A DNA stretch of 57,880 nucleotides from Actinomycetes bacterium (lineage in GTDB: Bacteria; Actinomycetota; Acidimicrobiia; Acidimicrobiales; JAKAVM01). A model generated the notes under the pieces. That model was given only the letters and a program-made list of their open reading frames with translations. It was not told where the DNA came from and made no database searches. A program made the position numbers and the translations under genes. Positions 4,832 through 40,232 of this stretch are shown one piece after another. Position 1 is the stretch's first letter. Every line of letters starts with the position of its first letter. The stretch lies in assembly GCA_021827485.1 (NCBI GenBank), contig JAKAVM010000018.1:1-57880 (forward strand), in the 5' to 3' direction.

Positions 4832-4882
4832 AGAGCAGGTCAGACTACTATCTTAGTTTCTTAGTTGCTAGGTTGCGGCTCT

Positions 4883-4903: not shown

Positions 4904-4932
4904 CCTAATGGTGAGGGAGAGAAAGGGAGATA

Positions 4933-6111
4933 ATGCCAGGTTCAATTCGCCATCGCAAGGATCGGGGGGCTGATGCCTGGGAATTGCGAGTATTTATTGG
5001 CCGAGACAGTCGTGGTCGTCCAAAACAAAAGAGCGTCTTATTCCGTGGGACCAAACGAGCTGCGGAACGTGAACTTGCCCGTTTAGTACTCCTTCAAGAC
5101 GAAAAGCCCGCATCTGTGCCAAATGAGGAGTCCAGACAGTGGAGTTCATCTACTACAGTCAATGATGCAATTTGCGCTTGGCGAGATAATGGATGGGACG
5201 ATCTGTCACCAAAGACTGCTAGAGGATATGAGGAAATTTGGAACCGATATGTACTCCATTCGATTGGGCTAAAACGGATTTCTGCTTTGGACCCATATAG
5301 CGTCGAACGATACTTTCGAAATCTAAAAGAAAAAGGAGCGGGTCGAGATACGGTTAGAAGGGTAAAATCACTCCTTCATAGAGCTTGTCGTCTAGCAGCT
5401 CGCTGGAGTGGAGGAGTCCTGACAAATCCCGTAGCAGATACAGAGCTTCCATCTTGGTCTATATCAGAACGCAGAGAGCCAGTACGTTCACCAAACCAAG
5501 ATGAAGTACGCACACTCCTTGAGGCTGCAAACAAGTACGATGAAGTATTTGGTGCCTTCCTCCGTCTTATTTGTGCAAGTGGTCTGCGCCGAGGAGAAGC
5601 ATGTGGCCTTCGTTGGTCTGATATTGACTGGGACTTGGCAACTATTACAATTGACGAATCTGTTGTTGCAGCCAAGGGCGGTGCAATAGTCAAATCGCCC
5701 AAGACTCGTGCAAGTATTCGCAAGCTCACTTTAGACTCGGGAACACTAGAGTGTCTTAGATCTCTTAGAATCCACCAAGATCAACTAGCTTTGGTCTGTA
5801 ATGTCGCAGTGGGTAATGACTCCTTTGTTTTCTCTTATGAACCAGGTGGCTCTACACCTCCCTATCCTGACACTATGAGCCACTCATTTTCTCTAGTGCG
5901 CAAAAAAGCTGGCGTAGCTTTAGATATCCATCTTCACTCTCTCAGACACTTTCAGGCAACCATTCTTGATCCAGTAATCCCAGAGCGACAAAAACAAGCT
6001 CGTATGGGTTGGTCAACTTCACATATGGCTCGTCACTACACTGACCCAATTATTGAAGAAGATCGTCGTGCAGCCACCTTTGTTGGAAATGTACTCGATG
6101 GCAAGCAATAG
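4933..6111 (+). CDS. Tyrosine recombinase / site-specific integrase
   Basis: A 392-residue phage-type integrase. The N-terminal SIRHRKDRGADAWELRVFIG region looks like the arm-binding (AP2-like) domain, followed by a SAM-like core-binding domain around residues 75-175 and the catalytic domain. Catalytic residues visible are the first Arg in GLRRGEACGLRWSDID, a Lys in the beta-hairpin region (IVKSPKTRASIRKLTL), HSLRHFQAT (His-x-x-Arg), Trp in place of the third His in ARMGWSTSHMARHYTDP, and the nucleophile Tyr in the same segment. Trp at that position is known in active members such as Cre. A GGGAG motif precedes ATG 4933. The gene sits about 100 bases from the attL core, transcribed away from the tRNA, the usual place for an integrase. 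It is convergent with the HTH gene, with a 10-base gap. Confidence 0.93.
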   Translation: MPGSIRHRKDRGADAWELRVFIGRDSRGRPKQKSVLFRGTKRAAERELARLVLLQDEKPASVPNEESRQWSSSTTVNDAICAWRDNGWDDLSPKTARGYEEIWNRYVLHSIGLKRISALDPYSVERYFRNLKEKGAGRDTVRRVKSLLHRACRLAARWSGGVLTNPVADTELPSWSISERREPVRSPNQDEVRTLLEAANKYDEVFGAFLRLICASGLRRGEACGLRWSDIDWDLATITIDESVVAAKGGAIVKSPKTRASIRKLTLDSGTLECLRSLRIHQDQLALVCNVAVGNDSFVFSYEPGGSTPPYPDTMSHSFSLVRKKAGVALDIHLHSLRHFQATILDPVIPERQKQARMGWSTSHMARHYTDPIIEEDRRAATFVGNVLDGKQ

Positions 6112-6557: not shown

Positions 6558-7190
6558 ATGAAGTCACTCTGAAATATGACACCCCTGAGAATTGTGAATA
6601 TTCCACACCTTGGGATCACTAGGTTGGGCTAAGCCAGCCTATCCAAGTAGCCCATCAAAGTATTTTGCAAAATCCGCCTAACTTCGCCAATTGACTAGCA
6701 AGCTATAGAGACAGATCCGATTTTCTAGGATATTTCAAAAAGAGCCAACTTCACTGGCTAAGAGATTGGCTCAACAAATTTCGCTTTCAAATAACCCTTG
6801 TAGTTTTACCTGACTCTGAGGCTAACTTTTCCATGAAATGTTCTATGAAGTTCCTGACTTCGAAGTGTCCTATTTGCTGGTATTGCCAAGATTGCGATTT
6901 GTCCAAAAAGGCTGATGACTATTGGGGCACTGCTCGCTTTGCCTAACAGTCGCTCGCAGTGCCCGAGATTAGTTTGAAGACTTGGAGACATTACGAGTGA
7001 ATCCATATAAACTTTTGACTAATGGAACTGGAAGATTATTCTGCCGCAGCGCCTAACGGCGCATTGGCCCCAGATCATGACAGAACGTTTTGGTTACACA
7101 TCAGTCGTAAAAGGCCGAATTTGAGAAGTGCCTGGTAGTAGGTGTGTGAGGAGTTCCTTTACTAATATCAAGTATCTAAGGAGGAGATCA

Positions 7191-10100
7191 ATGGGCCGTG
7201 GAATGAACCCCATCCATCCGGTCTTGCGGTTCACAGAGTGGAGAATAGGGCTTCCATTGTTCAAGTCTGAGTCGACCACATCCGATGGCACCGCAGAGAA
7301 CCGTACTTCCAAAGGCCCGATTTCGCACGCTGCACAGTTCCGAGTGCGAAATCGGGATGCTTTTGCTCTGTGGGTGCGTGTCCAACTTGGCAGCATGAAT
7401 ACAAGATTTCTGCTGGGCACCCTGGCGATATTTGTCGTGTGGACATTGACTGCAATGGGTATACAGATCGTCTCAACTGGGGTCGCGACGGCATCGACTT
7501 CTAATGCCTCGTCACCCTCTGGATGGTCCGGCCCCGTTTCAATCGATCCGAACACACTCCTCACCTCCGTTTCATGTCCAACGACGACGTTCTGTGTTGC
7601 GGTCGACAACTCGGGCGATGCATTCTCCTACGACGGATCCTCCTGGAGTGGGCCGACGACTGTGAGTGCTGGAGACGACTTAGCCGATGTCTCGTGTGCC
7701 ACTGCAGAATTCTGCGTCACATTGGACGACGCTGGAAATGCCTTTTCCAAAACCGGATTGCTATGGTCTCCACCAATTCCATTGAATGCAGTCTCTGTAT
7801 CGTGTCCCGTGATTGACTACTGCATGGTGGTCGCTCGATCTGGCGCGGTACTCGTTTTCAACGGCACTACATGGCTGACAACAAAATATGTGGGAAGTCA
7901 ACCCGAAGCGGTGTCTTGTGTCAGCGCGTCCTTCTGTGGAATAGCCGGAACTGTTGGTGAGTCTGGAGCAGCGTCCGTATACGATGGTACTGCTTGGTCA
8001 ACGGTAACTAGTACCGGCGGTAGTTCACCTAGGGCGTTGTCCTGTGTCAGTTCGACCTTCTGCGTCGGGTTTGACGATGGGACTGTTTATTCAGGTTCCC
8101 AATCGTTCGCCTACAATGGCACCTTCTGGTCAGAATCGCCTTCGGTGATCGATGCGAACGGAGTCCTGGACTCTCTGTCGTGTGCTAGCTCCACCTTTTG
8201 CGTTGCTGGTGATGAGGCGGGAGATGTTGTGGCATATGACGGCAAGAGCTGGTCGGCGCCGGAATTGATTGATAAGGGACGAGGTGTGACATCGATCTCG
8301 TGTGCGAGCGCGAAATTCTGTATGGCTGTAGATAACTCTGGCAATGCCCTCATTTTCGGAAGTTCGGGGTCTCCAAGCTCTTCCAGTGGCCCTGCAAGTC
8401 CGACAAGTCTCTGGCAGTTCAAGACGATAGCTTCCTCGAACCCGGAAGATGTTTCATGTTCCGATCCAAACTTCTGCATGGTGGTTGGTCAATATCCAAC
8501 TGGCACTCAGCAATTCACTGAGTCGTGGAATGGGTCGGCATGGACAAGCGAAGAAGTTCCGCTCTCATCTACGCTAAATTCCCGGGATATATTGACTGCT
8601 GACTCGTGCGTCTCTGCTCAGTTCTGCATGGCAGTATCAAACGATGGAGCAATGGAGTGGAACGGATCGGCATGGTCGGCGATCTCCACACCGCAACCGA
8701 CTGGGATAGATCAATATTCGTTGGCTGCGATCTCCTGCCCTACTGTATCTCTGTGCATCGCTTTGGGGAATGAGAGTGAGATTAACTCCTCAGTAGAGGC
8801 TCCTCTCATCGAAGAGTGGGATAGCACGGCCTGGCGGGTAGTCGACGGGATTGGAATTGGAGTGCAAGTGAACTCGCATTATTTGATGTCGTCACTTTCG
8901 TCTGTATCGTGTGTAAGTGCATCATCGTGTATCGCTGTGGGAAGCGCCAGCACGAGTTACTCAGCCAGTGATGCATTAGTCGAATCGTGGAACGGGACTC
9001 AGTGGTCGATCGCACCAGATCCTTCATTTAATTCGATCTCAATTTACAACGAGTTGAGTGGCATATCGTGTGTCGTGAGTACATACTGCGTCGCCATTGG
9101 AACGCAGGCTTCTGCCTTTTACTCTTCAGTCTGGAATGGGTCGGCATGGAGTGGCACTGTTGTAGCGGGTTCGCTCAACGGATACGCATATCCGCGTTCG
9201 ATCTCATGTCCAAGCGAAGCAGCGTGCGTGGTAGTCGGGTCCAGCATGTCACTTTCGGCGCCGAATCAAGCATGGATTGCCCGCATGAACGGCACATCAT
9301 CAAACTGGTCAACGCTGGCGAACGAAGGTATCACTGGCATGTCGAGCACCGCAGAAAGCGTATCCTGCAGCGATCAATTCGACTGCGCAGTGATAGCGAA
9401 TAGTTGCGGATCGACGTGCAATGGAGAGGAGGGTTGGGTAGTTATTGGGAATCCACAGGTGGCCAGCCTGGTTCCAAGTGTGAATTCGGTCTCACCATCC
9501 ACGGGGTCAGTCGCGGGTGGCACATCGGTGACGCTCATCGGATCGGGTTTCACCGGAGCCACCGGAGTTGAGTTCTACGGACCACCCGGTACGCAAGCTG
9601 TCGCGGCCGAGTCGTACAGTGTGAAATCGGACAATGAAATAACGGCAGTATCCCCTACGTTTAGTGCGTTCATGGCTGGAGCAATCGAGACAATCGTTGT
9701 GACGACTGCAAGCGGTTCATCGAGTCCGGGATCGGGTAGTCAATTCACACTCGCTGACGCCTTGTGCGTTGGTACAGACAGTCCTGGAACCGTCATTGGG
9801 ATGGCGCGAAGTACGCTGATTGGGTACTGGATTGCGGATTCGTCCGGAAAAGTTATGGACTGTGGGGGTGCACCAAACTTCGACACTGCACCGATGTCTG
9901 GTTCTGTCGTTGCAATCGCAGGAGAAGGCAATTCGGGAGGACCAGGTTATTGGGAAGCGACGTCGAGCGGAGAGGTCACGGCGGCGGGGAGTGCAGGCAT
10001 GTTGGGTTCATTAAACGGGACTCCGCTTGCCAAGCCGATTGTGGGCATGGCAGCAACTCCCGACGGAAATGGCTACTGGCTAGTCGCTGCCGACGGTGGC

Positions 10101-10523
10101 ATCTTCGCCTTCGGCGACGCGGGCTTTTTCGGCTCGATGGGAGGCAAAACTCTAGTCCAGCCGATAGTCGGCATGGCAGCAACTCCCGACGGAAATGGCT
10201 ACTGGCTAGTCGCTGCCGACGGTGGCATCTTCGCCTTCGGTGACGCGGGCTACTTTGGATCTACTGGTGGGATTCACCTGAGCCAGCCGATAGTCGGCAT
10301 GGCAGCAACTCCCGACGGAAATGGCTACTGGCTAGTCGCTGCCGACGGTGGCATCTTCGCCTTCGGCGACGCGGGCTTTTTCGGCTCGATGGGAGGCAAA
10401 ACTCTAGTCCAGCCGATAGTCGGCATGGCAGCAACTCCCGACGGAAAAGGATACTGGGAAGTAGGTTCTGATGGAGGAGTCTTTGCTTTTGGCGACGCAA
10501 ACTTCTACGGTTCGGCCGTTTGA
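7191..10523 (+). CDS. Giant secreted repeat protein, element cargo
   Basis: A protein of 1,110 residues. The start at ATG 7191 is chosen because AAGGAGG lies six bases upstream; an in-frame start at 7128 lacks such a site. A 68-residue Arg-rich N-terminal extension precedes a hydrophobic segment (MNTRFLLGTLAIFVVWTLTA) ending in TGVATAS, a signal peptide or anchor. Next come about 14 repeats of roughly 40 residues with the pattern SCxxxxFCxAVDxxGxxxxYDGxxWS, each with a Cys-x5-Cys pair, resembling propeller-type blades. An IPT/TIG immunoglobulin-like domain follows (SVSPSTGSVAGGTSVTLIGS). The C-terminus has 42-residue GYWLVAADGGIFAFGDAGFF repeats. It is probably extracellular and adhesive. The gene is more GC-rich than its neighbours. 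A relative lies at 37215-40232. Confidence 0.85.
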   Translation: MGRGMNPIHPVLRFTEWRIGLPLFKSESTTSDGTAENRTSKGPISHAAQFRVRNRDAFALWVRVQLGSMNTRFLLGTLAIFVVWTLTAMGIQIVSTGVATASTSNASSPSGWSGPVSIDPNTLLTSVSCPTTTFCVAVDNSGDAFSYDGSSWSGPTTVSAGDDLADVSCATAEFCVTLDDAGNAFSKTGLLWSPPIPLNAVSVSCPVIDYCMVVARSGAVLVFNGTTWLTTKYVGSQPEAVSCVSASFCGIAGTVGESGAASVYDGTAWSTVTSTGGSSPRALSCVSSTFCVGFDDGTVYSGSQSFAYNGTFWSESPSVIDANGVLDSLSCASSTFCVAGDEAGDVVAYDGKSWSAPELIDKGRGVTSISCASAKFCMAVDNSGNALIFGSSGSPSSSSGPASPTSLWQFKTIASSNPEDVSCSDPNFCMVVGQYPTGTQQFTESWNGSAWTSEEVPLSSTLNSRDILTADSCVSAQFCMAVSNDGAMEWNGSAWSAISTPQPTGIDQYSLAAISCPTVSLCIALGNESEINSSVEAPLIEEWDSTAWRVVDGIGIGVQVNSHYLMSSLSSVSCVSASSCIAVGSASTSYSASDALVESWNGTQWSIAPDPSFNSISIYNELSGISCVVSTYCVAIGTQASAFYSSVWNGSAWSGTVVAGSLNGYAYPRSISCPSEAACVVVGSSMSLSAPNQAWIARMNGTSSNWSTLANEGITGMSSTAESVSCSDQFDCAVIANSCGSTCNGEEGWVVIGNPQVASLVPSVNSVSPSTGSVAGGTSVTLIGSGFTGATGVEFYGPPGTQAVAAESYSVKSDNEITAVSPTFSAFMAGAIETIVVTTASGSSSPGSGSQFTLADALCVGTDSPGTVIGMARSTLIGYWIADSSGKVMDCGGAPNFDTAPMSGSVVAIAGEGNSGGPGYWEATSSGEVTAAGSAGMLGSLNGTPLAKPIVGMAATPDGNGYWLVAADGGIFAFGDAGFFGSMGGKTLVQPIVGMAATPDGNGYWLVAADGGIFAFGDAGYFGSTGGIHLSQPIVGMAATPDGNGYWLVAADGGIFAFGDAGFFGSMGGKTLVQPIVGMAATPDGKGYWEVGSDGGVFAFGDANFYGSAV
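10035..10522 (+). repeat. 126-bp tandem repeats encoding GYW units
   Basis: Units begin at 10035, 10161, 10287 and 10413 (the last incomplete and diverged) and encode 42 residues each. Positions 10044-10195 are identical to 10296-10447 (152 bp without a mismatch), so units one and three were copied recently or are kept alike by gene conversion. Confidence 0.9.
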
Positions 10524-24145: not shown

Positions 24146-25543
24146 TTAGCCCTGATTAACTATCTGATCTATAGCGTCCCCGATGGTCCAAGCAATCCGA
24201 TCAATCTCATCTTGTGACGATGTAAGTATTGGCACTGTAGTTACAGTTGAGCCAATCGAGCGTAGTATAACTCCATATTCTATGGATTTCGCACAAACCT
24301 TACGAGCCAGAAGAGGATCACCGAACTCATCGCAATTGAGTTCAATGCCAGCGAAAAGCCCTTTTGTGCGCACCTCTTTGACGACAGGTCGCTGTCGGGC
24401 AATAGTCTCAAGTGCGTCATGGAGCTGGATGCTGCGTTCTTTGACGTTGGCAAGCACATTATAGCTGTCAAATAGTTTTAAATGCTCGATTGCAACCGCG
24501 GCTGCTAATGCATTTCCTCCAAAAGTGTGCCCGTGAAAGAGCGTTCGCTTCGAGAGGTCTGGGCCCAAGAACGAGTTGGCGATCCTTGCGCTTACAACGG
24601 TTGCCGACATTGGAAGATAGCCACCTGTCATTGCTTTGCCAAGGCACATGATGTCAGGGCGTATTCCGGCTTCTTGAGAGGCGAAAAGTGAGCCTGTTCT
24701 GCCAAAGCCAGTTGCGATCTCATCGACAATCAGAGGAATCGACATTTGATTACAAGCGCTTGACAACGATAGCAATCCAAGGGAGTCATTGAGTTGTATC
24801 CCCGATGCCGCTTGGACGAGAGGCTCAACAATCGCTCCTGCTAGACCATCGGGACAGTCGCGAATATAGTCAGCCATCTCATAAAGATCTTCGCAAAAGA
24901 TAGTTTCAAATTTTAGAGGATTGAATGTATCGCCATAGAAACCAGAGTCGCTAACCGACATAGCGCCAACGGTATCACCGTGATATGCACCTTTGAGGGC
25001 TATGAACTTATCATGGCCTTCGATGTCGATATTTTTCCAGTATTGGAACGCAATTTTAAGGGCTTGTTCGACAGCACTTGCTCCGTCACTAGCAAAAAGA
25101 AACTTTGGATCATTCACCGGTACAAGTTCGCTTAGAAGTTCCGCTAGACGCACTGTTGTATCACAGCCATTTCCAAGCATTGTTGCATGGGAAATTCTAT
25201 TTGCTTGATCAAATAATGCTTTGTTGAGCTCGGAAAGAGCATGACCTAAAGTGACCACCCACAAGGAAGATATTGCATCAAGATATTTATTCCCATCGAC
25301 ATCAAATATGTACCTGCCTGCACCGCGGCTAGCGATTACTGGATTGTTATCCTTATAGTGATGCATTTGAGTAAACCCATGCCAGACGACGTTGGCATCA
25401 CGTCCTATCCAGTCTTGGTGAGTGATATTGGGATCAAGAGTTTGTAACTCAACCCGATCTTGCTGGGAGCCACTAAGTGCGCAAGTCTGTGAGGTGGCCA
25501 AGCTAGATTGATTATCTGATGGTTCAAGAGAGTTTTCGACCAT
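24146..25543 (-). CDS. bioA: Adenosylmethionine-8-amino-7-oxononanoate aminotransferase
   Basis: PLP-dependent class III aminotransferase of biotin synthesis, converting KAPA to DAPA with S-adenosylmethionine as amino donor. The protein is about 465 residues. VVWHGFTQMHHYKDNNPVIA matches the BioA-specific N-terminal region, AISSLWVVTLGHALSELNKA follows, and PLIVDEIATGFGRTGSLFA carries the PLP Asp. CLGKAMTGGYLPMSAT has the Schiff-base Lys, and FHGHTFGGNALAAAVA the phosphate-binding region. A Gln/Ser-rich N-terminal extension of about 40 residues is unusual. The ATG at 25543 is preferred over a TTG two codons upstream. No other biotin gene is in the window. Confidence 0.9.
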   Translation of the reverse strand: MVENSLEPSDNQSSLATSQTCALSGSQQDRVELQTLDPNITHQDWIGRDANVVWHGFTQMHHYKDNNPVIASRGAGRYIFDVDGNKYLDAISSLWVVTLGHALSELNKALFDQANRISHATMLGNGCDTTVRLAELLSELVPVNDPKFLFASDGASAVEQALKIAFQYWKNIDIEGHDKFIALKGAYHGDTVGAMSVSDSGFYGDTFNPLKFETIFCEDLYEMADYIRDCPDGLAGAIVEPLVQAASGIQLNDSLGLLSLSSACNQMSIPLIVDEIATGFGRTGSLFASQEAGIRPDIMCLGKAMTGGYLPMSATVVSARIANSFLGPDLSKRTLFHGHTFGGNALAAAVAIEHLKLFDSYNVLANVKERSIQLHDALETIARQRPVVKEVRTKGLFAGIELNCDEFGDPLLARKVCAKSIEYGVILRSIGSTVTTVPILTSSQDEIDRIAWTIGDAIDQIVNQG

Positions 25544-25942
25544 ATTCAAAGTTTAGAGTGCTATAAAGTTAGTAGCGACTCCCGAGGGTGGAATTGGTAT
25601 ACAGGTAAGCACTTTCGGTGTTGGATAACTACTGTAAGTAACTATTATTTCTATCCGTGAGGAACAGAAGTTTGATTATCCCCAAGGAAATCTTCTAAAG
25701 GCGCGATGTCTAGGGCATATTGATACTTGACAAACGGGGTCAAAGTATGAATAATAGTAAATGAATATTCATTAACTTTTAGAAGCATATTTGGGGTTAG
25801 TTTCATCAATGGAATCAATTTATTTTCGATTTTCAAACAACCTTTACAGGGGAGAATCGTTAGTTTTTACTTTCAAGTTGGGTAGGCAAGAGATATCTCT
25901 CGATTGCCTGTTCGGGGATATGCAGGTTCGGATTGACTGAGC
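25544..25942. other. Divergent intergenic region
   Basis: About 400 bases between bioA (minus) and the pilin operon (plus). It must hold both promoters. It is AT-rich near 25740-25840. One minus-strand open frame of 61 codons (25651-25836) is present but shows no family features. No RNA structure was recognised. Confidence 0.35.
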
Positions 25943-26455
25943 ATGTTCGCTTTTCTTAAACGATGCCTACTCTGTCAAAAAGGAAAGTTGCTGGTTGGTT
26001 TTGGTGCTATTTCCATTTTAGGCGGTGCTAGTTCTGTTGCTTACGCAGCATCTACATATCAAAGTCAACGCAGCGATTCTTTTAACCATATTGTCCAGTA
26101 TGGAAATGTCTCAGGCACCTTAACGATGTTCTTTCAATGCCTCCAAGCGCATGGACTTCCAGATCTATTTGGCATTGGGACTAGTATGCCTAAGGGTTTC
26201 AACCCAGCTTCCAGCCAAGCAATTGCAGCGGGGAAAGCATGTTATACCGAAATGCCCCTCACGAACTCTAATTCAATCACGGGACCGAATATTTCGTTCA
26301 ACGAGTTATTTGCACAGTGTATGAGGGAAATGGGAATCTCCAATTTCCCGAATCCAAATATCGACGGATCATTTTCATTTAGTTCGAATCCTCCGTCGTT
26401 TAATCAAATACAAGGACCGGAGCAAGTGTGTACACAACGCGTCGAGTCTCAATAG
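25943..26455 (+). CDS. Secreted protein with two C-x-x-H/M-G motifs
   Basis: A 170-residue protein with a signal peptide ending ASSVAYAAS near residue 37. Two related segments are visible: FFQCLQAHGLPDLFGIG, and FAQCMREMGISNFPNPN followed by IDGSFSF. The second matches a motif common in secreted actinobacterial proteins of unknown function (A-C-M-R-x-H-G-x-x-x-F-P-D-P). Two more Cys residues (KACYTE and EQVCTQ) make two likely disulphide pairs. It is the first gene of the pilin-like operon and overlaps the next by 28 bases, so a role outside the cell together with the pilins is probable. Function is not known. Confidence 0.7.
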   Translation: MFAFLKRCLLCQKGKLLVGFGAISILGGASSVAYAASTYQSQRSDSFNHIVQYGNVSGTLTMFFQCLQAHGLPDLFGIGTSMPKGFNPASSQAIAAGKACYTEMPLTNSNSITGPNISFNELFAQCMREMGISNFPNPNIDGSFSFSSNPPSFNQIQGPEQVCTQRVESQ

Positions 26456-27249
26456 CGCTACGGTTAACCCGAAATAATTACCAGGATTCCGGCTTTGGAA
26501 TTATTGAGTCAGTAATTGCTGTTCTGGTTCTCTCTGTCGTGGTTATTACACTTGGCTCATTTTTATCGGGTATCTCAAGGAATACCGGCGGATCCAGCCT
26601 TGAAGTTACCAGTGCTGGATTGGGCAGGCAGGAACTAACCTATTGGCAGCAGCAGCTAGCTTCTGACTCAGTCGATGATTTTCCTTCACCTCTTCCATGT
26701 GCTTGGACTAATGACGGGCAATCCATAGGGGCATCAATTTGTCCGGGAGAGAATATCTTTAACGTCGTAAGTGGAGATATATGCGCACCAGCTATTTGTA
26801 CTATCAAACCCAACCCGGCATATTTATACTCCTATTGCTCACCGCTAGGTTCTGATACAGTTGCTCCTTCATGTACGGTTCCTACAACGGTTCCAAATCC
26901 TACGCTGTCGTCAAGTTCCTTTACTATAGTTACTGCTGCATCTTGGCAATGTAATTACAATCCCTTGATCAGCGAAGGGAGTGATTTTAGCTCGGCGAAT
27001 AAATATCCAAGTATATCCGTTAAAGTAAGCGTTACTTGGCCGCAAATGAACGGCATGTCTCCGGTCGTGCTCGAAATTGCGATACCTGCTCCGACTGGAA
27101 TCGTTGTGAGTGAAGTTGACAAGGCAGGCACAGGAGTTCCCGCTTGGCCACAGCAAGCAACTGCCCCCCAAACTCCATCTTGGCCAGGTGTCCCATCACA
27201 ATCAAGCACTTTCAACTCTAATACTGGGAATAACAGTTGCCTTCCATGA
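26428..27249 (+). CDS. Prepilin-like protein (PilV-type)
   Basis: A 273-residue protein with a type IV prepilin N-terminus: DSGFGIIESVIAVLVLSVVV, where the peptidase would cut between Gly and Phe and the Glu at +5 (mature) is kept. It lacks the usual Thr-Leu of GFTLIE. The body is rich in Ser, Pro and Cys and begins with LGRQELTYWQQQLASDSV. Start GTG 26428 overlaps the upstream gene. Such minor pilins prime assembly and sit at the pilus tip. The next prepilin gene overlaps in ATGA. Confidence 0.8.
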   Translation: MYTTRRVSIALRLTRNNYQDSGFGIIESVIAVLVLSVVVITLGSFLSGISRNTGGSSLEVTSAGLGRQELTYWQQQLASDSVDDFPSPLPCAWTNDGQSIGASICPGENIFNVVSGDICAPAICTIKPNPAYLYSYCSPLGSDTVAPSCTVPTTVPNPTLSSSSFTIVTAASWQCNYNPLISEGSDFSSANKYPSISVKVSVTWPQMNGMSPVVLEIAIPAPTGIVVSEVDKAGTGVPAWPQQATAPQTPSWPGVPSQSSTFNSNTGNNSCLP

Positions 27250-28049
27250 CGTCTAGCATCATTTCAAAACCAACATGCCAAAAAGCCAATGTGTTCCACT
27301 ATGAATCGTGTCAAAAGGTTTGGGACAGATACGACTCAGGTTTTACCCTTATAGAAATTTTAATCGGGCTAATGATTATGATGGTCGTCAGTGTTGGTGT
27401 GGGGAAGCTAGCTTTCGAAGCGGTTAACCAATCTTCCGCAGATTCAAATCGCGTTCGGGACATTTCTGAGGCCCAAAAGATTTCCGAAAGCTTGGATCAA
27501 CTTTTAACGTCTGCAGCATGTGTATCTGGGCCTGCACAAATTGTCGGAGGAGGTGTCGGTTGGACTATACCTCCTGTTTATGATCAAGACTGCGGAGGAG
27601 ATCCGAGCCAAATAGTAGTACCCCTCCCGGGAACCTCAACACCTAGTCCTGTCGGGAATACCTCATTCTATTTATTTTCTCCTGAAGAAATTCCGGTTAA
27701 TACTGGCACGGTTCCAGTAAGTCCCGCCCTTAATATCTATACAGAATTTTACGTATCAACTAAAGCCGAACTTGTTGGCGGAAGTAATTTAGTTTACGTA
27801 ACGGTACAGAATCTTCAGAATGGTGCAGTCACTTTCTTGGGAAGTGACTTACGATCAATCTCGTATAGCTATGTTCCATATTCGAACATTGTTAGTTTTA
27901 GCAACAAATGCTCGGCTGGAGGTTCGCCAATTCCAAACGACGGCGCGATTACTGGTTCCATCGAATTGGATTTGAGTATGGGATCTTCGGCTAGTGATAA
28001 GACCGGTACTACATACGAATCGTGCATTTTTCTTCCGGGCTCAATTTAA
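27246..28049 (+). CDS. Prepilin-like protein (PilW-type)
   Basis: A 267-residue protein with a standard prepilin motif SGFTLIEILIGLMIMMVVSV preceded by a long, 38-residue basic leader. The mature part has QKISESLDQLLTSAACVSGP, typical of PilW/PilJ-type minor pilins, followed by a beta-rich C-terminal domain with a Cys pair (NKCSAGG and ESCIF). Start ATG 27246 overlaps the previous stop in ATGA; a TTG three codons upstream is an alternative. It should insert next to the PilV-type and PilX-type proteins during assembly of a pilus or pseudopilus tip. Confidence 0.82.
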   Translation: MTSSIISKPTCQKANVFHYESCQKVWDRYDSGFTLIEILIGLMIMMVVSVGVGKLAFEAVNQSSADSNRVRDISEAQKISESLDQLLTSAACVSGPAQIVGGGVGWTIPPVYDQDCGGDPSQIVVPLPGTSTPSPVGNTSFYLFSPEEIPVNTGTVPVSPALNIYTEFYVSTKAELVGGSNLVYVTVQNLQNGAVTFLGSDLRSISYSYVPYSNIVSFSNKCSAGGSPIPNDGAITGSIELDLSMGSSASDKTGTTYESCIFLPGSI

Positions 28050-28060
28050 AGGACTTCACG

Positions 28061-31000
28061 TTGAACAACTTACCAATCAACCCTATTTCAAGACTTCTTA
28101 ATTCCGTTAAAGAGGATTATCGCCGGTATTTGGCTAATTTTCGAATTCGTCGGCAAGCGGTGGCCCCAGGGAAGCGACCTGACTGTGTCACTTTTAAAAC
28201 TCGGCTTGCCAGCCAACGCGGTCAGTCGATGATGCTTGTGGCTGCATTTATGTCCGTGCTATTGCTTTTGCCAGTGGCACTTAGTGCATTGGCGATTGGC
28301 GAAATCGGTAATGCCAATCAGTCGGTGATCAAGAACGCTGCACTGGCGGCTGCCGAAGCAGGCTTAGCAGATTATATTTCGTCCCTCAACAATTCAGCTG
28401 GATCCAGTGGTTATCAGACGCTTAATGCCGGTAATTCAACCTATCCGGCATTCGGAGGAAACTCAGGTGCGGCCCAGTGGGAACCTGTAGCTGGCTCGCA
28501 GAATGAATGCTTCTTTTATGAGACCACGGGAGCCTCAAGTTCAAACGTGACAGTTACTGTGACGGGGAGATCCGGACCAGCCAATAACAGTGCCAACAGT
28601 TGTGTAACCAGAAGCAGAGTTAGCTACCAGTTCAGAACCATTGCGGTAGCTTTGACCGCTAATCAGAACAATCCGTATCTCTATCAAGACGAATATAGCG
28701 TTGCTAATCCGTTTGTATATGGTCAACTTTCAGGCGGCGTAAAGACGTGTGGATACTATGCATATAGCAGCAATCCGAATTGGGGATTTATGTGGACTGG
28801 GGCAACCATTTTTGCTTCCATGGATACAGACAGGGATCTTCCCGCTGATCCAGATGATGGGATCTTGGATTTCGGAGATTGGGATTCAATCCTTCCAGCC
28901 GACACACATTCAACCGTTGCTCTTGGCGGAGTGGCGCAAACTGGCTCGGCATTTGGACCTTCGGCCGCAGGGGCAATTGGTGCGTCAGGCCCAGGTCACG
29001 AATATTATTGGAATAACGGTGGGGGAATCCTCGGTATCAATTTTGCTTTTAATGGAAACGCATATCCGAATACCCAATTCTACAATGAAAATACTCCATT
29101 TACGTATCCTCCTGAATCTTGGAATACCAGTTACAACGCTCTCGGCAATACTACGAACGGTCCGAGCGGCTGCCAATCTTTTGGATCGCCATTTCACGAT
29201 GGAATGATGACGAACTCCGATACATTCAACGGGGGATCGGGTGCAACTCAGCCAAAGGTGTATTCGACTGATGAGTATTACGTTTGCTCCCCATATCCAA
29301 GCATATCCGGCTCTCCGGATCCAGCTGGTCCAGCTTTCTCTAATGTTTCCTTGCTATCTGGTGATCCGTATACTTCTGCTTCGGCGCCACCCATTCCCTT
29401 CTATGAACAAACTCCCAATGTTATGTCTTTCTTCTATGGTCTACCTTGGATTTGGCAGTTATTGATCGGTCGTCAGAGTATTTATATATCGTTTCAAGCT
29501 AAACATCCCTGGCAGACAGGTCCCCCGTATTGGGTTGCGCCATTTTCAGAGACTTTACAGGGTCAGATGAATTTGAATATTCGAACATGGTTCCTGAGTA
29601 ATACATCTACGATTAGCGCAAGCCCTTCTGATGTTCAATTTTGTGATCCAAATACCCCGATGCCGACGATTGCTCAAGTTCCAACGGTACACCCTCCCTT
29701 TACCACTCCTTCTGGCCCCTCTGCGGCTCCAGACTATACCTTATCTTCAGTAATGAGCGCTGCCGCAAGCAATGGCGGATGCGTTTATTCTGGTAATACA
29801 TCAATAATATTTACCGGGGGAGTAGGGGCTGCGGTTACGCTGGGAAGTGGGTCTAGTGTTGTTTCGGGAGGAGGTAGTTGTGTTGGCTCGTCCGTATCTC
29901 CTCCCAGCAAAGTGTTTTTTGTTGAAAATGGAAACGCGTTTACTGCAGGCAATGTTAACGGAAAATATACGGTAGCGGTTGCTTCTACTTCACCGAATCT
30001 CGTCTCATTGCCGGGTAGTCCGAGCTTCCCTTACCCGGTAGTAGGGAGCTATTCTTCCTTCAACATTACCAATAACCCTGGTCCCGCTGCTGGATTTTCA
30101 GGTGCGAGCAACACTTATCCTGACAGCATTTATATCATGGGGAATATAACTTATGCGGGATCAGGTTGTGCCCCAACAGTCACAGCGGCATGCACGGATT
30201 ATCTAGGACTCCTATCGCAAAATGATGTAGTTATATCATATCCCACCATGCAGCCTAATAGTGAGGGCGCGGATACGGACGGTACTTGGGTTGCCTATAA
30301 TTGTGTTCCCGATTGGCAGGATTGTGCTTTAGGAATTGACCCATCGACTGATAAAGATGGCAGCGACCCTAAGTATCTTGGAAAACTATGCAATACTAAT
30401 GGCGTTGATACAGATGGAGATCAATCTTGCCAAGTTAGCTCTGGTCCACCAAGCCTCATTGAAGTGCCAAGTTCACCGTACACGTGTGATAGCGATGATA
30501 CTGCGAATAACTCAACAGGTTGGCGGTGCGAGGAACTTTCAAGCAAACCTGATACAGATTACGACAAAAGGATCAAGGCAACTACGGTACCAGACAAAGA
30601 CCGAGTTGATAATGAAAGCGATAGCATGTATGCCGGAAAGACATGCACGGTTGGTGGGGCTTCGCCTGATCCTGACGGGCAATATGGTAGTACTGTATCT
30701 GGTTACGATGATGGTTACTGTCAGGGTGACGCTCCCCAGGGATTCGATTTTGATAGTGACGATACGGGCCACTCGGAAACTGAAGAGGTCGACGGACCGT
30801 CTAGTCAAGTTATCCACACAATAGATGCTTCAATTGATGCCGTTTGGGGTTCCTTGCTTCTTGATAACTATGCGTATTTTTCCAATGCAGACCACAGTTG
30901 TTTGATGGGGAAGTTCTATTTTGGTGAGGGCTTATATGACGAACCTAGCGATGAATACAGCCCAACGTCGGTGGGTGGGTCATGTAGCTCTGACAACGAT

Positions 31001-31288
31001 GGTGATGAGAGCACAATCGGAGATCTAACCATCAATGGGTCGGTAGCTCAGTTCTGGACGGGAATATTGACGCACTTTGATGCCTACATGGGGCAATACA
31101 TTACTTCGGGTGGTTACGCGAAAGTCAATTACAACTATGACGGCAGATTCATGACTCAAGTGCCACCGGATATGGGCATGGGCACAAATGCTGATTGGCA
31201 AGCAACAACAACAATTGGCGAAGCGTCAATATGTCCGACTGGTAATACAAATAGTAGTGGTATGGAAGAGAGTACCGGGTGCCCGTAA
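28061..31288 (+). CDS. Giant PilX-like pilus-tip protein, 1,075 aa
   Basis: The N-terminus contains RGQSMMLVAAFMSVLLLLPV and ALAAAEAGLADYI, the pattern of PilX-type minor pilins, which lack the GFTLIE motif. The extracellular part is about 980 residues: a Gly/Ser/Pro-rich region and many Cys. From about residue 730 it has Asp-rich stretches such as GADTDGTWVAYN, DPSTDKDGSDPKYLGKLC, NGVDTDGDQSC and FDFDSDDTGHSETEEVDG. These resemble calcium-binding thrombospondin type 3 or dockerin-like loops. The TTG at 28061 with AAAGGA upstream is chosen; a GTG at 28022 inside the preceding gene is an alternative. Length is several times that of ordinary PilX. In Neisseria and Myxococcus, large tip proteins of this kind (PilC/PilY1) are adhesins; this may be a fused equivalent. 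Confidence 0.75.
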   Translation: MNNLPINPISRLLNSVKEDYRRYLANFRIRRQAVAPGKRPDCVTFKTRLASQRGQSMMLVAAFMSVLLLLPVALSALAIGEIGNANQSVIKNAALAAAEAGLADYISSLNNSAGSSGYQTLNAGNSTYPAFGGNSGAAQWEPVAGSQNECFFYETTGASSSNVTVTVTGRSGPANNSANSCVTRSRVSYQFRTIAVALTANQNNPYLYQDEYSVANPFVYGQLSGGVKTCGYYAYSSNPNWGFMWTGATIFASMDTDRDLPADPDDGILDFGDWDSILPADTHSTVALGGVAQTGSAFGPSAAGAIGASGPGHEYYWNNGGGILGINFAFNGNAYPNTQFYNENTPFTYPPESWNTSYNALGNTTNGPSGCQSFGSPFHDGMMTNSDTFNGGSGATQPKVYSTDEYYVCSPYPSISGSPDPAGPAFSNVSLLSGDPYTSASAPPIPFYEQTPNVMSFFYGLPWIWQLLIGRQSIYISFQAKHPWQTGPPYWVAPFSETLQGQMNLNIRTWFLSNTSTISASPSDVQFCDPNTPMPTIAQVPTVHPPFTTPSGPSAAPDYTLSSVMSAAASNGGCVYSGNTSIIFTGGVGAAVTLGSGSSVVSGGGSCVGSSVSPPSKVFFVENGNAFTAGNVNGKYTVAVASTSPNLVSLPGSPSFPYPVVGSYSSFNITNNPGPAAGFSGASNTYPDSIYIMGNITYAGSGCAPTVTAACTDYLGLLSQNDVVISYPTMQPNSEGADTDGTWVAYNCVPDWQDCALGIDPSTDKDGSDPKYLGKLCNTNGVDTDGDQSCQVSSGPPSLIEVPSSPYTCDSDDTANNSTGWRCEELSSKPDTDYDKRIKATTVPDKDRVDNESDSMYAGKTCTVGGASPDPDGQYGSTVSGYDDGYCQGDAPQGFDFDSDDTGHSETEEVDGPSSQVIHTIDASIDAVWGSLLLDNYAYFSNADHSCLMGKFYFGEGLYDEPSDEYSPTSVGGSCSSDNDGDESTIGDLTINGSVAQFWTGILTHFDAYMGQYITSGGYAKVNYNYDGRFMTQVPPDMGMGTNADWQATTTIGEASICPTGNTNSSGMEESTGCP

Positions 31289-31393
31289 CTTGATAAATCG
31301 ACTTGATGGGGTATGTGAAAACCTTGGCCGCGTAGTTGGAGTTCGTTGGCTTTTGAAAATAAAGAAAAGCGTAGTGTGAGGAGCACACAGGGA

Positions 31394-32395
31394 ATGAGGC
31401 AGTTGAGATATTTACCTTTATCGATCGTAATCGGAATTGCAACAGTCTCGTGTAGTCCAGGGAAAGTGAACAGTCCAACGGCCAGGCTCATCAGCTCAGT
31501 ACACGCCACTCGCAATTCAGGCAGTGCCCTGATGACTATTGACTTTGATGAAATTGCCGGAAGTTCCGTTACCTCTATCCACTTTTCAGGATATTATAGT
31601 TTTAACTCATCTATCGGTGAGCTAACTACTCAAAGCGTAGCTCCCGAATTATCTCCCTCCTCAACGTCTGTTCCACTTCCGGAGAACAACAACGCTGCTA
31701 ACGGACAGTCGTCAGAAAGTGTTGGTAGTGTTCCCGTAACGCTACTAACCTCAAAGGTGATTCTAACTGCAAACCGTTATTTGGTATCCATACCGACGCA
31801 ATTAGCTCAGTTTTCTGGGGGCAAGAAGTGGGCATCTATTTCGCTATCTTCGCTTAATCAACTTTCCCATGCGGCCGGGCTAAGCTCCCTGCAGGCAGTC
31901 TTAGATGATCCCCGTTTTTGGTGGACACTGTTAAATGGTGTTTCGGGAAAGTTGAAACTTGTAGGCAGCGGATTGGTAGATGGTTTCAAGACGCGACTCT
32001 TCTCTCAAAAGGTGAACCTGTTGAAGTCGTCAGACGATCCAGGACCCTATCTTTCGGTTTTGGATGGAGCCGTCTCTGGAATGGGTACTGGTCTCGTCCC
32101 AATGCAAGTAGCAATCGATAAACATGGATTGATTCGTCAAGCATCAATCAGCTTCACATTTCCCATTGAATCTCAATCAACTCAATATGCAAGCAAACCA
32201 AGTTTGAGTCAATCGGGCAGTAGTATACCACCATCGCCAACTTCAACCGGGACTACTACATCCGTAGGGCCTTCTTCGGTTCAACTTGACGTTGTCCTCA
32301 CTTTCCCATCTTTCGGTGTGCCAGTCAACGTCAAGATACCATCCTCATCAGAGATTACAAGCTTGAATTCCATAATTTCTGCGGGGAGTGGATAA
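31394..32395 (+). CDS. Lipoprotein in the pilin operon
   Basis: A 333-residue lipoprotein with lipobox IATVSC near residue 20. The body looks like an LppX/LprG-type (LolA-like) half-barrel: repeated beta segments with KLKLVGSGLVDGFKTRLFSQ in the middle, and a linker SIPPSPTSTGTTTSVG before the last strands (VQLDVVLTFPSFGVPVNVKI). Such proteins carry lipids or act as envelope assembly factors. The ATG at 31394 is chosen over a TTG at 31346 because it gives a normal signal peptide and has GAGG upstream. It is separated from the last prepilin gene by no bases (TAA-ATG). Confidence 0.68.
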   Translation: MRQLRYLPLSIVIGIATVSCSPGKVNSPTARLISSVHATRNSGSALMTIDFDEIAGSSVTSIHFSGYYSFNSSIGELTTQSVAPELSPSSTSVPLPENNNAANGQSSESVGSVPVTLLTSKVILTANRYLVSIPTQLAQFSGGKKWASISLSSLNQLSHAAGLSSLQAVLDDPRFWWTLLNGVSGKLKLVGSGLVDGFKTRLFSQKVNLLKSSDDPGPYLSVLDGAVSGMGTGLVPMQVAIDKHGLIRQASISFTFPIESQSTQYASKPSLSQSGSSIPPSPTSTGTTTSVGPSSVQLDVVLTFPSFGVPVNVKIPSSSEITSLNSIISAGSG

Positions 32396-33115
32396 ATGAG
32401 TTCAAAGCATGGATTTCGTAAAGTTTACATATCAGACAAGACGAGAACTGATAATAAGCAAACTTACGAAACTGGGTTTACTTTGATCGAAGTTCTCGTT
32501 GTTGTTTTGCTCATAGGTGTAATCTTGGCTTTCGTAGCACCGTCCATGAACGGACCACGCGTTGTAACTGCTGACGCTAGAGCGCAGGCGATAGCTATCA
32601 ATGCAGCCAATTTAGTAGCAGGGATATTCGCACAAACTGGAACTTATGAAAATATACAGCCTGGTCAGTTAGGATGCACTCCTCCATTTAGTTGTTCAGG
32701 ACCAACTCAGTGGCGAGCGGACGGGATAAATTGGATTACAAGCTCGAGTGCGCTTGCAAGTCCAATGACTCCAAATGCTAACTCTGTAACCAACCCAAGC
32801 GATCCTAACGATGGTTTAGGTACCGGAGTCGCGACGCCAGATGTAGTCGCGTTATTGACAGATAATCAAGCTTGGGCGAACGGCGATACTTCAACTACTG
32901 TAGCTGTAAGTGCAAGCTCACCAGGTGACGGCTGCTGGCTTATTACTTTACATTCGACAGGTCCAGAAGTCTATGGATATGCTCCTGGCAATTGCTCGAC
33001 TTTGACGACGTGCTGGCCGGAGAAGGTACCTCCTTTTGATTCTTCGGCAGATGGAAGTATGTGCGACATTCAATCACTGTCACTTGGAAAATTTCCGGGG
33101 GACCCGAATGCATAA
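32396..33115 (+). CDS. Prepilin-like protein (GspG/PilA-type)
   Basis: A 239-residue prepilin with a 28-residue leader and the motif TGFTLIEVLVVVLLIGVILA. The mature part has a long N-terminal helix and a C-terminal domain with several Cys (GCTPPFSCSG, DGCWL, NCSTLTTCW, MCDIQ), suggesting two or three disulphides. It starts right after the lipoprotein stop (TAAATG). It is the last gene of the operon before the TetR regulator. No assembly ATPase, platform protein or prepilin peptidase is in the window, so the machinery must be encoded elsewhere. Confidence 0.8.
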   Translation: MSSKHGFRKVYISDKTRTDNKQTYETGFTLIEVLVVVLLIGVILAFVAPSMNGPRVVTADARAQAIAINAANLVAGIFAQTGTYENIQPGQLGCTPPFSCSGPTQWRADGINWITSSSALASPMTPNANSVTNPSDPNDGLGTGVATPDVVALLTDNQAWANGDTSTTVAVSASSPGDGCWLITLHSTGPEVYGYAPGNCSTLTTCWPEKVPPFDSSADGSMCDIQSLSLGKFPGDPNA

Positions 33116-33172: not shown

Positions 33173-33826
33173 GTGATGGTGAGCAGGAATTATCGAGGGC
33201 TTTCGCTGGGTCAGAGGCTCTATCAGCGGCGAGATCGTATTGTAATCGCTGCGACCGAGATCTTTGCTAAGCAGGGATATTGGCATACAACTGTCGATGA
33301 GATCTGTGGATTAGCACACGTAGCAAAGCGTGACTTCTACGACATATATGATGGCAAGGAAGATGTCTTCCGAGATCTGTATGACGAGATTATTGAAATA
33401 GCTCTCGATGCCACCAAGCAAGCAATCCACGACGCGCCTAATGATTTGGAGAACACCTTTCGAGCTGGAATATCAGCATTCTTGAGAATTGCATTATCTG
33501 ATCCAAATCGCGTAAGGATATTGTTTGTTGAAGCGGCAGGTATTAGCGAGGCCATGGGACTCAGAAGGCGAGAAGCACTTCATGAATTCTCGAGGCTAGT
33601 CCAGGTCCAGTTCGATAAATTCGGATCAAGTGCGGCAGTGATCACGAAACATTCTCCATATACACAGCGCGCCCTCGCGTTGGTTGGAGCTGCTAAAGAG
33701 GTAATAGCCGATTGGGCAGCCGATCGCAAGAAAACCTCAATCGATGAGCTGACTGAAAACCTAACAGAAATATTTACTGCGGTATTCAATTCAATTGTCG
33801 ATTTCAGCAAATTATCAGTTAGCTAG
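33173..33826 (+). CDS. TetR-family transcriptional regulator
   Basis: A 217-residue regulator. The N-terminal HTH is RRDRIVIAATEIFAKQGYWH followed by TTVDEICGLAHVAKRDFYDI and YDGKEDVF. The all-helical C-terminal domain follows, with DPNRVRILFVEAAGISEAMG as part of the ligand or dimer region. It lies 57 bases after the pilin operon in the same direction and could be transcribed with it. The start is GTG 33173 or the ATG one codon later. Its last 12 bases overlap the convergent glycosyltransferase gene. Ligand and targets are unknown. Confidence 0.88.
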   Translation: MMVSRNYRGLSLGQRLYQRRDRIVIAATEIFAKQGYWHTTVDEICGLAHVAKRDFYDIYDGKEDVFRDLYDEIIEIALDATKQAIHDAPNDLENTFRAGISAFLRIALSDPNRVRILFVEAAGISEAMGLRRREALHEFSRLVQVQFDKFGSSAAVITKHSPYTQRALALVGAAKEVIADWAADRKKTSIDELTENLTEIFTAVFNSIVDFSKLSVS

Positions 33827-37214: not shown

Positions 37215-40200
37215 GTGATCATGTGGTTCCATTGTCATATGGATTATCTAGGCTTCCGAGTAGAATACTCAAAGCTTTGGCGGTTGGCGTATCAAGAAGC
37301 AAAGGTTACAGCGAAGAGGAAACGATTTACCTCTATTCCGTCAACTATCGCTCTGATGATTATAATTTTATTAGGGATTTCAGTTTCTCCTGCAGCAGCA
37401 TCGTGGACAAGTGAAATGTTTTCAAATACATCTACAACAGGGCAAGGTAAAACCGGGGATTTCTATGGGGTGGCCGCCGATGGCTCCTCAATGATCGCCG
37501 TAGGAGATGACTCAACTTCAACTTTCGGCCAGATTTCCACTGCGGGTTCGTCAGGCCAGTGGAACTTTGAAGAGGATTTCAATGGGAGTCCAAGTAATTT
37601 AGTAACTCCAAATATCAAGGACTATGAGGTTGATTCACTATCTTGCGCCTCGACTGCATTATGTATAGCGGTAGGTACGCTTGGTTCTGCAATAGTTTAC
37701 AACGGTTCCACCTGGAGTTCGGTTACCGACGTTGATGGTGGCTCAACTCTCACAGGTGTTTCTTGTGTTCTAGCTTCAACCTATTGTATCGCGGTCGACG
37801 ATTTGGGTAATGCGATTATTTATTCTGGTGGGAGTTGGGCGAGCGCGTCAAGCGTCGAGGTGGGCAACGCACTTGAAAGCGTGTCCTGTGTGGCTACTAC
37901 CTTCTGTATGGCAGTAGATCCAACAGAAGTATTCAATTTCAATGGGACTTCTTGGACTGGACTTACAATTGACACTGCACCAAGGCAGCTATCATCAATT
38001 TCATGTGGATCTACCGGATTTTGTATTGCAGTCGATCGTAGTGGATATTCTATTAGATGCAGTCCTTATTGTCATCCATCGACTCCTTGGATATGGTCAA
38101 CTGTAACAGTAGATTCAGGTCATACACTTGATTCTATCTCTTGCCCCACTAGTAGTGTCGGGAGCTGTTATGCAGTAGATGCTGGTGGATATGAGTTTCT
38201 TTACTCGTCAGGAGCTTGGAAGGCGGGAGTTGATATCGATTCTTCTATTCAAATCAACAGCGTTGCGTGTGCAAACAGCTATTGCATGGCAGTCGATGAA
38301 GCGGGAGATGCATTGTCTTGTACTACTGCGGCGAGTTGCAGCTCTTCGACCTGGACCAAAACCGCGAGTATCGACAGTAACTCACTTTCGGGAGTTTCAT
38401 GTATATATGTGTCTACGACAGATACATTTTGTTTGGCTATTGATCTGATAGGCGATTACTTGACGTCAACAAACGGAACTTGGTCGACACCAGCTATTGC
38501 CCTTCGAGTTCCTACTTCACTCGATTTATCATGTAGTTCGGCAAGTTTTTGCATGGAGGTTGGGGTAGGCGGGGAAGCAAAGTCGTACAATGGAACAGTT
38601 TGGACAACAACGAACAGTAGCGTTGACCTAACTCATAGTTGGATTAGCGTGTCATGTATTTCATCAACATTTTGTATCGCAGTGGATAATAGCGGCAATG
38701 GACTAGTTTTCAATGGGTCCAGTTGGACAATTGCTTCGTTGGGGAGCGGCATTATTGCGACAAGTGTCTCATGTGCCTCAATATCGTTTTGCGTTGCAGT
38801 AGACAGTAATGGTAACTATAATTTTTACAATGGATCGGAGTGGGGCCCGAATTCATCAACGTACGATACCGATTCATTCGCAGGGATATCATGCCCCGTG
38901 GGAGGTACTTTTTGTGAAGCGGTAGATACATCTGGCGGTGTTGATATGGTATCGGGATGTGGTTCTTCTACGTGCACCTGGACTCCTCGGTCCTCAATTG
39001 ACTCAGTTGGATTCACCGCAATTTCGTGCATAGCCGCATCGTGGTGTATCGCCGTTGATTCTAATGGAGATGCACTAAATAGTTTGAACAATGGAATCAC
39101 ATGGGCATCTACGCTATCTATTGACACTGTTGCCATCACATCAGTTTCGTGTTTTTCAACGGCACTTTGTTCCGCGGTGGACACTCTCGGGCAATCATTT
39201 ACCTTTAGTGGTACCTGGACATCATCATCATGGTCGACTCCAACTGCAGTTAGCCCATATGCGTTAAATTCTATTTCATGTCCGGCTGCGAACTTTTGTG
39301 TGGCAGGTGATGTCGAAAGTAATCTTTTTACAACTGATCAGCTTGTGACGGGTCCTCTTTTTGGAATTGCATGTGCATCTATAAATGAATGTACCGCAGT
39401 GGGTGTTTCAGCTAACTTAATGGGGCCAATTATTATTTCCTCTTCAAATCCGTTAAATGCTGGAACATGGAGTGAAGATACAATTCCGTCAAGTTTATAC
39501 GGAGTTAGCGCTTTATATGGAGTGACGTGCGCTTCTTCTTCAAGCTGCTTTGCAGTTGGGACATCAAATTCTGGAGGAGCGATACTTTCGTCAAGTAATG
39601 GAGGCGTAACTTGGAATGAACAAGCAATACCAACGTATCTAGGCGGTATTTCAGCAATATACGGGATTGGTTGTATTTCCTTCCCAGTTCGATGTGCGGT
39701 TGGATCGGTATTGGATGGTGGAGTATCTGAAGGTGTAATCATATATACTTCTGATTCAGGTGTGACATGGCAGGGGGAGTTCAATACGCCTTTTGGCGGG
39801 ATGCTAAGTGGAATATCTTGCACTTCAACTCCAGAATGCGTGGTAACTGGTGATGGTAATGGTTACTCTCTCATCTATGTTGACGATTCTCTTACGGGTT
39901 CATCACCCTCTGAAAGTACCTGGGACTACTATGAGACCTCGGATGGAGGAATGTCGTATCTTTACGGCGTTCAATGCCCTGCAGTTTCCACCTGCATTGC
40001 TTACGGCTGGACATCAGGGCAAGCGACGATTTTCGTCAATACAGCGATGACAACTACTCCAGGAACTACTTGGAATGTGCAAGAAGTTGGTTTGACCGGC
40101 CTTACCTATGTATCGCCACCGCCAGATCCTACTTCATGGTATGCTATGGCATGTTATGCCGGTGAGTGTATGGCAGTCGGTGCGAACAATGCTTCACCAG

Positions 40201-40232
40201 CCTATTACCCTGAAAGTGCTTATGGCTCATAA
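37215..40232 (+). CDS. Giant secreted protein of Cys-x5-Cys repeats
   Basis: A protein of up to 1,005 residues with a signal peptide (SIPSTIALMIIILLGISVSP ending PAAAS near residue 63). The rest is about 20 repeats of roughly 40-50 residues with the pattern SxSCxSxxFCxAVDxxGxxxxYNGSxWS. The paired Cys are mostly five residues apart. The pattern resembles beta-propeller blades of the sialidase/Kelch kind. It is the same repeat as in the mobile-element protein at 7191-10523 but lacks the IPT domain and GYW repeats. The N-terminal start is uncertain: GTG 37215 or ATG 37242 both leave a long basic leader. It is probably exported and adhesive or carbohydrate-binding. Confidence 0.8.
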   Translation: MIMWFHCHMDYLGFRVEYSKLWRLAYQEAKVTAKRKRFTSIPSTIALMIIILLGISVSPAAASWTSEMFSNTSTTGQGKTGDFYGVAADGSSMIAVGDDSTSTFGQISTAGSSGQWNFEEDFNGSPSNLVTPNIKDYEVDSLSCASTALCIAVGTLGSAIVYNGSTWSSVTDVDGGSTLTGVSCVLASTYCIAVDDLGNAIIYSGGSWASASSVEVGNALESVSCVATTFCMAVDPTEVFNFNGTSWTGLTIDTAPRQLSSISCGSTGFCIAVDRSGYSIRCSPYCHPSTPWIWSTVTVDSGHTLDSISCPTSSVGSCYAVDAGGYEFLYSSGAWKAGVDIDSSIQINSVACANSYCMAVDEAGDALSCTTAASCSSSTWTKTASIDSNSLSGVSCIYVSTTDTFCLAIDLIGDYLTSTNGTWSTPAIALRVPTSLDLSCSSASFCMEVGVGGEAKSYNGTVWTTTNSSVDLTHSWISVSCISSTFCIAVDNSGNGLVFNGSSWTIASLGSGIIATSVSCASISFCVAVDSNGNYNFYNGSEWGPNSSTYDTDSFAGISCPVGGTFCEAVDTSGGVDMVSGCGSSTCTWTPRSSIDSVGFTAISCIAASWCIAVDSNGDALNSLNNGITWASTLSIDTVAITSVSCFSTALCSAVDTLGQSFTFSGTWTSSSWSTPTAVSPYALNSISCPAANFCVAGDVESNLFTTDQLVTGPLFGIACASINECTAVGVSANLMGPIIISSSNPLNAGTWSEDTIPSSLYGVSALYGVTCASSSSCFAVGTSNSGGAILSSSNGGVTWNEQAIPTYLGGISAIYGIGCISFPVRCAVGSVLDGGVSEGVIIYTSDSGVTWQGEFNTPFGGMLSGISCTSTPECVVTGDGNGYSLIYVDDSLTGSSPSESTWDYYETSDGGMSYLYGVQCPAVSTCIAYGWTSGQATIFVNTAMTTTPGTTWNVQEVGLTGLTYVSPPPDPTSWYAMACYAGECMAVGANNASPAYYPESAYGS

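Follow-up and report, generated by a model that had tools for sequence, protein, structure and literature searches.

The window, the whole 57,880-nucleotide stretch of DNA analysed here, comes from an uncultured actinobacterium of the order Acidimicrobiales (same-family relative DAIDIS010000079.1). At 25943-33115 the list of open reading frames shows a cluster of six intact genes, all on the plus strand and spanning 7 kb (Table 1). These six frames bear out the initial annotation, which had described three prepilins, a giant PilX-like protein, a lipoprotein and a small Cys protein packed with overlaps. The first four genes overlap by 28, 13 and 28 bases, a gap of 57 bases separates the giant gene from the lipoprotein gene, and the latter abuts the last prepilin gene at 32396. 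The neighbours of the cluster are a bioA-like aminotransferase gene on the minus strand (24146-25549) and, on the other side, a gene for a TetR regulator (33173-33826). Two sites in the whole window match the promoter consensus at 11 or more of 12 positions, and one of these lies upstream of gene 1. The cluster belongs to a known kind, the minor-pilin tip operon, and stands out for the unusual size of its PilX-type subunit; type IVa pili commonly have their minor pilins in an operon of their own. The proposal that an actinobacterium has such an operon, with an outsized PilX-like protein, is supported.

Table 1. Features of the minor-pilin operon and of the giant subunit, in window coordinates
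Feature	Position	Strand	Remarks
Promoter-like site TTGACA-17-AATAAT	25727..25755	+	11/12 consensus positions; consensus match only
Small secreted Cys-containing protein, 170 aa	25943..26455	+	Signal peptide-like N-terminus (AYA/AS); orphan
PilV/GspI-like minor prepilin (G/FGIIE), 273 aa	26428..27249	+	N_methyl weak
PilW/GspJ-like minor prepilin (G/FTLIE), 270 aa	27237..28049	+	Pfam N_methyl E 1.3e-6
Giant PilX/GspK-type minor prepilin, 1,088 aa	28022..31288	+	RG/QSMML, no Glu5
Conserved scaffold block of giant, residues 561-742	29702..30247	+	Kept across 15 homologues and the smaller family
Asp-rich insertion of giant, residues 743-930	30248..30811	+	31 Asp, 8 Cys, net charge -28
Conserved C-terminal block of giant	30812..31285	+	Invariant positions in homologue alignments
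Lipoprotein (lipobox IATVSC), 349 aa	31346..32395	+	Distant SCO4651 family
GspH/FimT-like prepilin (G/FTLIE), 239 aa	32396..33115	+	N_methyl E 2.2e-5; GspH/GspG N-terminal matches

Elsewhere in the window, a tRNA-Gln (ttg) has a phage-type integrase gene ~100 bases downstream (4752-6111), possibly marking an integrated element. Two large secreted proteins of 1,131 and 1,005 aa (7128-10523 and 37215-40232) carry 'SC...FC.AVD..G' repeats, the first with a TIG domain as well. Both look like propeller proteins of the cell surface and may act as adhesins.

The three small prepilins bear class III prepilin signals, with N_methyl above the cut-off in two and weak in the one at 26428, and correspond in sequence to GspH/FimT-, GspI/PilV- and GspJ/PilW-like subunits. 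Each has a counterpart in a genome of a related genus (G003). The PilV-like protein is 39% identical to the product of the same-position gene there, and 27% identical to that of a second operon on contig C64 of the source genome; the PilW-like protein shares 43% identity with its same-position counterpart in G003. The counterpart of the GspH-like gene, 42% identical, lies at the opposite end of the cluster in G003. The lipoprotein matches NF053532 (the SCO4651 family) weakly (34.7 bits, where the cut-off is 65), and a lipoprotein 34% identical to it directly follows the G003 giant. The Cys protein is present and overlaps the operon start, but it has no Pfam or NCBIfam match, and a search of 58 further genomes of the order and of the G003, C64 and G002 loci gave no homologue. 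It is therefore not accepted as a conserved, core part of the operon.

The fourth gene encodes the giant. The initial annotation gave it 1,075 residues; giant it is, but it is 1,088 aa long from the first GTG, and the shorter length would correspond to a start codon lying 13 codons downstream. Its N-terminus reads RG/QSMMLVAAF and then AAAEAG, replacing the usual G/FTLIE. This is the sequence pattern of Glu5-less tip subunits of the GspK/PilX type, and it recurs in those homologues that have a complete N-terminus. Pfam searches of the giant returned neither PilX_N (PF14341) nor N_methyl and no extra recognisable domain, and its weak matches to viral and MAX-effector families were set aside as chance-level. 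The domain libraries searched hold no name for it, and the giants match no curated family. Sequence searches with single proteins and with profiles likewise found nothing meaningful among PDB chains, ComZ included. As a putative PilX/GspK member, the giant is placed by its motif, its position and its profile homology to relatives.

These relatives form a larger family. With the 853-aa giant of the C64 operon as query, relatives were found in 15 of 99 genomes of the order, the source genome counted. Most of the loci inspected in the order have small prepilin genes (PilV-, PilW-like) next to a gene for a PilX-like protein of 427-1,173 aa. A profile built from 15 PilX-like proteins of the order was then searched against 149 sampled genomes of the phylum and found family members in 35, mostly as open frames of 440-800 aa. 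One member of 541 aa sits between a PilW-like prepilin gene and pilM. PilX_N itself scores 24.3 bits in L057 and 21.3 bits in L098, against a cut-off of 25.5. Genome contigs scanned with a single protein yielded no relatives; an alignment-based scan of contigs yielded two, of which one is truncated by the end of its contig and the other looks frameshifted. The family of the giant is widespread and essentially uncharacterised.

Profile comparison by hhalign joined the giants to the smaller family at 99.6% (E 1.4e-23), with columns 57-1042 aligned against 11-545. Because this homology to the smaller family is full-length, the giant is read from its sequence as a common PilX-like scaffold enlarged by insertions, mainly at residues ~235-410 and 743-930, the latter a stretch of 188 Asp-rich residues. 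The 440-800-aa actinobacterial PilX-like proteins (for example L082, L084, L057, L058) are homologous to it over the whole length and share its operon context (PilW-like genes, in one case pilM), whereas the giant has ~550 extra residues in insertions that include the Asp-rich segment. This segment is missing or very short in the smaller homologues L056, L057, L058, L060 and L082-L084.

The conserved blocks on either side of the Asp-rich insertion have distinct signatures. The scaffold block contains the motifs GCVYSG, FFVENGNA, VNGKYTVA, IYIMGNITY and LGLLSQNDVVI and is possibly a beta-solenoid. This idea rests on the repeat-like sequence and on analogy, since the structure models of the giant are unusable. 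AlphaFold2 reached a pLDDT of 28 on the mature giant, with only one relative usable, and 33 on the C-terminal 350 residues alone; the low confidence stems from the single relative that could enter the prediction. The C-terminal block carries TIDASIDAVWGS, DNDGDEST, LTINGSV and GGY..NYNYDGRF..PP.

The initial annotation had also proposed Asp-rich, calcium-like loops. As Asp-rich loops these are real, both in the 31 Asp of residues 743-930 and in the DxDxD-like motifs. The giant has five such motifs, against a mean of 1.3 and a maximum of six in 500 shuffles, and its G003 orthologue (~50% identical) has 10, against a shuffled mean of 1.7 and maximum of six. All four of the closest giants keep the motif D991, D993, D995 unchanged. 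Calcium binding by the giant is suggested by these motifs. The mature protein has a net charge of -69, although high acidity need not mean adhesion.

The operon has a paralogue in the same genome. On contig C64 (L013:7817-13321), PilV-like, PilW-like, giant, lipoprotein and GspH-like prepilin genes follow in the same order as in the window. The window giant and the C64 giant (P0002) share three common blocks of 40%, 42% and 32% identity. Lipoprotein genes come after the C64 operon on the other strand. The cluster in G003 is of the window type, with PilV-, PilW-, giant, lipoprotein and GspH-like genes, and its 1,173-aa giant shows 51% identity in a four-way alignment. A genome of the same genus (G002) has only the C64 type, kept in the same genomic neighbourhood as in the source genome (L055), while G003 has only the window type. 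This distribution is as expected of exchangeable tips.

A type IV pilus is a grappling-hook-like hair, and the genes for building one lie outside the window. The initial annotation noted that the operon contains no assembly genes, which holds for the cluster but not for the genome, and it proposed a search for pilB, pilC and pilD. All three were found in the source genome (2.78 Mb, 128 contigs, 92.3% complete). Contig C7 carries PilB, PilT and PilC genes in a row, beside a chemotaxis cluster. The best model for PilB is the type IV-A PilB TIGR02538, at 629 bits against a curated cut-off of 675.65, and PilT scores 480.6 bits, over its cut-off. A second PilT-like ATPase is encoded on contig C1. 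Contig C45 encodes a major-pilin-like prepilin, PilD (Pfam A24_N_bact, E 9.8e-34), PilM (E 7e-50) and PilO, followed by aroC, aroK and aroB; PilN appears only as a weak match of the C-terminus of the PilM protein. A lack of type IV machinery, which was to count against the initial annotation, is accordingly rejected, as C7 and C45 carry PilB-PilT-PilC, PilM/N-PilO, PilD and a major pilin. The description of the operon as 'stand-alone' is misleading, since the genome has a paralogous tip module besides this one, and a single type IVa machine serves both. Membership of a Tad or type IVc system is also rejected, as the Tad-type system of this genome lies apart from the pilin operon on contig C82.

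Several further features of these contigs were observed. The C7 PilB (L005:9020-12350) has an MshE-type c-di-GMP-binding N-terminal domain, at 39.5 bits against a cut-off of 38, and the neighbouring cluster is CheA/CheB/CheR/MCP-like, which suggests regulated pilus motility. At L076:964-7508 on C45, pilM and pilO are followed by a gene in the possible pilP position, by a gene for a 989-aa secreted TIG and CAP protein, and by aroC/aroK/aroB. The TIG/CAP protein gene occupies the position of the diderm secretin PilQ, giving a pilMNOPQ-aro order without the secretin. Between the major pilin gene and pilD (L014:4164-5426), a TnpB/OrfB-like transposon protein was recognised by eye.

Searches of the source genome for secretin (PF00263) gave no match, as expected of a monoderm. 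For PilY1 (PF05567) the best genome match, on another contig, reached 16.3 bits, under the cut-off of 28.1. The C-terminal propeller domain of this family is also absent from the giant by Pfam search, and a PilY1 fusion is therefore rejected. Absences from this genome are soft, as it is 92% complete.

Known systems provide close parallels. The established model holds that filament assembly, in type IVa pili as in type II pseudopili, is primed by the minor pilins together with a PilX/GspK subunit lacking Glu5, all of which end up at the tip (PMC7541494). Myxococcus runs three minor-pilin clusters on a single machine, and these are considered to produce distinct tips (PMC7541494). The FimU-PilV-PilW-PilX(-PilY1) clusters of Myxococcus xanthus have the same small pilins and Glu5-less PilX as the window operon, are likewise apart from the core machine and likewise number several per machine. 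In contrast, the window operon has no PilY1 gene, has a PilX-type subunit of 1,088 aa, includes a lipoprotein and belongs to a monoderm without secretin. Modular pilins of monoderms have been described in the literature (PMC8179133, PMC6916266). Streptococcus sanguinis PilB and PilC are large minor pilins with adhesive modules in a monoderm type IVa system (PMC8179133, PMC6916266), but they have N_methyl and a grafted domain (vWA, lectin), neither of which Pfam finds in the giant. Earlier work has found type IVa genes in Acidimicrobiia (PMC12008989).

A different comparison is with the tapirins (NF051896). The 541-aa relative of the giant matches this family N-terminally with an E of 0.026, far under the cut-off; the match spans only the N-terminal helix, and the giant itself has none. 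Tapirins are large cellulose-binding proteins of Caldicellulosiruptor, which has a Gram-positive-type cell, and their genes lie near type IV pilus genes. The match is only a lead.

Taken together, the operon probably encodes one of two alternative priming and tip complexes for the single type IVa machine of a monoderm actinobacterium. PilD would cleave all four prepilins, the giant included. Within the membrane, the giant would then come together with the three small minor pilins to initiate the filament, and this complex would travel outward at the filament's tip. There calcium and disulphides would probably stabilise the giant's acidic insertion, which is rich in Cys and Asp, and the giant would form the exposed end that touches a surface or polymer, the role of a separate PilY1 adhesin in diderms. 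As no PilY1 was found above threshold, the giant is the best candidate for an exposed adhesive end, and a merging of the PilX and PilY1 roles, as the initial annotation had put forward, is plausible. The lipoprotein probably aids maturation of the complex or its passage through the cell wall, and two operons would allow pili with two different tips.

A broader idea can be put forward only tentatively. The Glu5-less tip pilin of monoderm actinobacteria may itself have become the adhesin, replacing PilY1. It would be a calcium- and disulphide-braced giant of up to ~1,200 residues, with insertions that vary between exchangeable tip operons on one machine.

The giant could instead be a component of the pilus shaft or of the cell surface with no specific place at the tip, for example as a lipoprotein anchor or a binder of the cell's own wall polymer. 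Size alone does not set position, and a location in the filament body has been left open for modular pilins (PMC8179133). However, a Glu5-less subunit with ~1,000 extra residues would be hard to fit inside a helical filament, as was argued for ComZ (PMC6561018), and the GspK/PilX precedents sit at the tip, which makes this arrangement unlikely. The chances are somewhat poorer still for a secretion-type pseudopilus, in which the minor set would push out the lipoprotein or other substrates with no long adhesive pilus. The GspH/I/J/K-like set and its linked lipoprotein, kept together in G003, would suit such a system, but the genome gave no secretin match, its assembly ATPase scores best to type IVa PilB, and it has two PilT-family retraction ATPases.

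Those retraction ATPases would also suit a pilus for DNA uptake, with the giant as a ComZ-like DNA receptor of a competence system. In Thermus, the tip pilin ComZ is GspK-like, has a large additional domain and binds DNA (PMC6561018); the ComZ type is marked by a large beta-solenoid set into a pilin fold like that of GspK. In Thermus thermophilus, ComZ with PilA2 resembles the giant in being a large GspK-type protein with an inserted domain, encoded beside small minor pilins. The two show no detectable sequence similarity, however, and ComZ is about half the size of the giant. Such a role is improbable given that the giant is strongly acidic and that ComEC was not found in the 92%-complete source genome, in a search whose control detects it in 10 of 14 genomes. 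That the operon is a paralogue in decay or silent, without a role today, is very improbable. A second operon does exist and G002 of the same genus shows no window-type copy, but all six frames remain intact across 7 kb, the orthologue in G003 keeps the Asp-rich region and the DxDxD motif, and a near-consensus promoter-like site lies upstream.

The reading of the operon as one of two tip modules bears on a group of bacteria in which the studied pili are of the Tad type (PMC6916266). The family of the giant, present in 35 of the 149 phylum genomes, offers a concrete candidate for the tip subunit of the monoderm type IVa pili in this phylum. With two paralogous operons in one genome, exchangeable tips are open to experiment.
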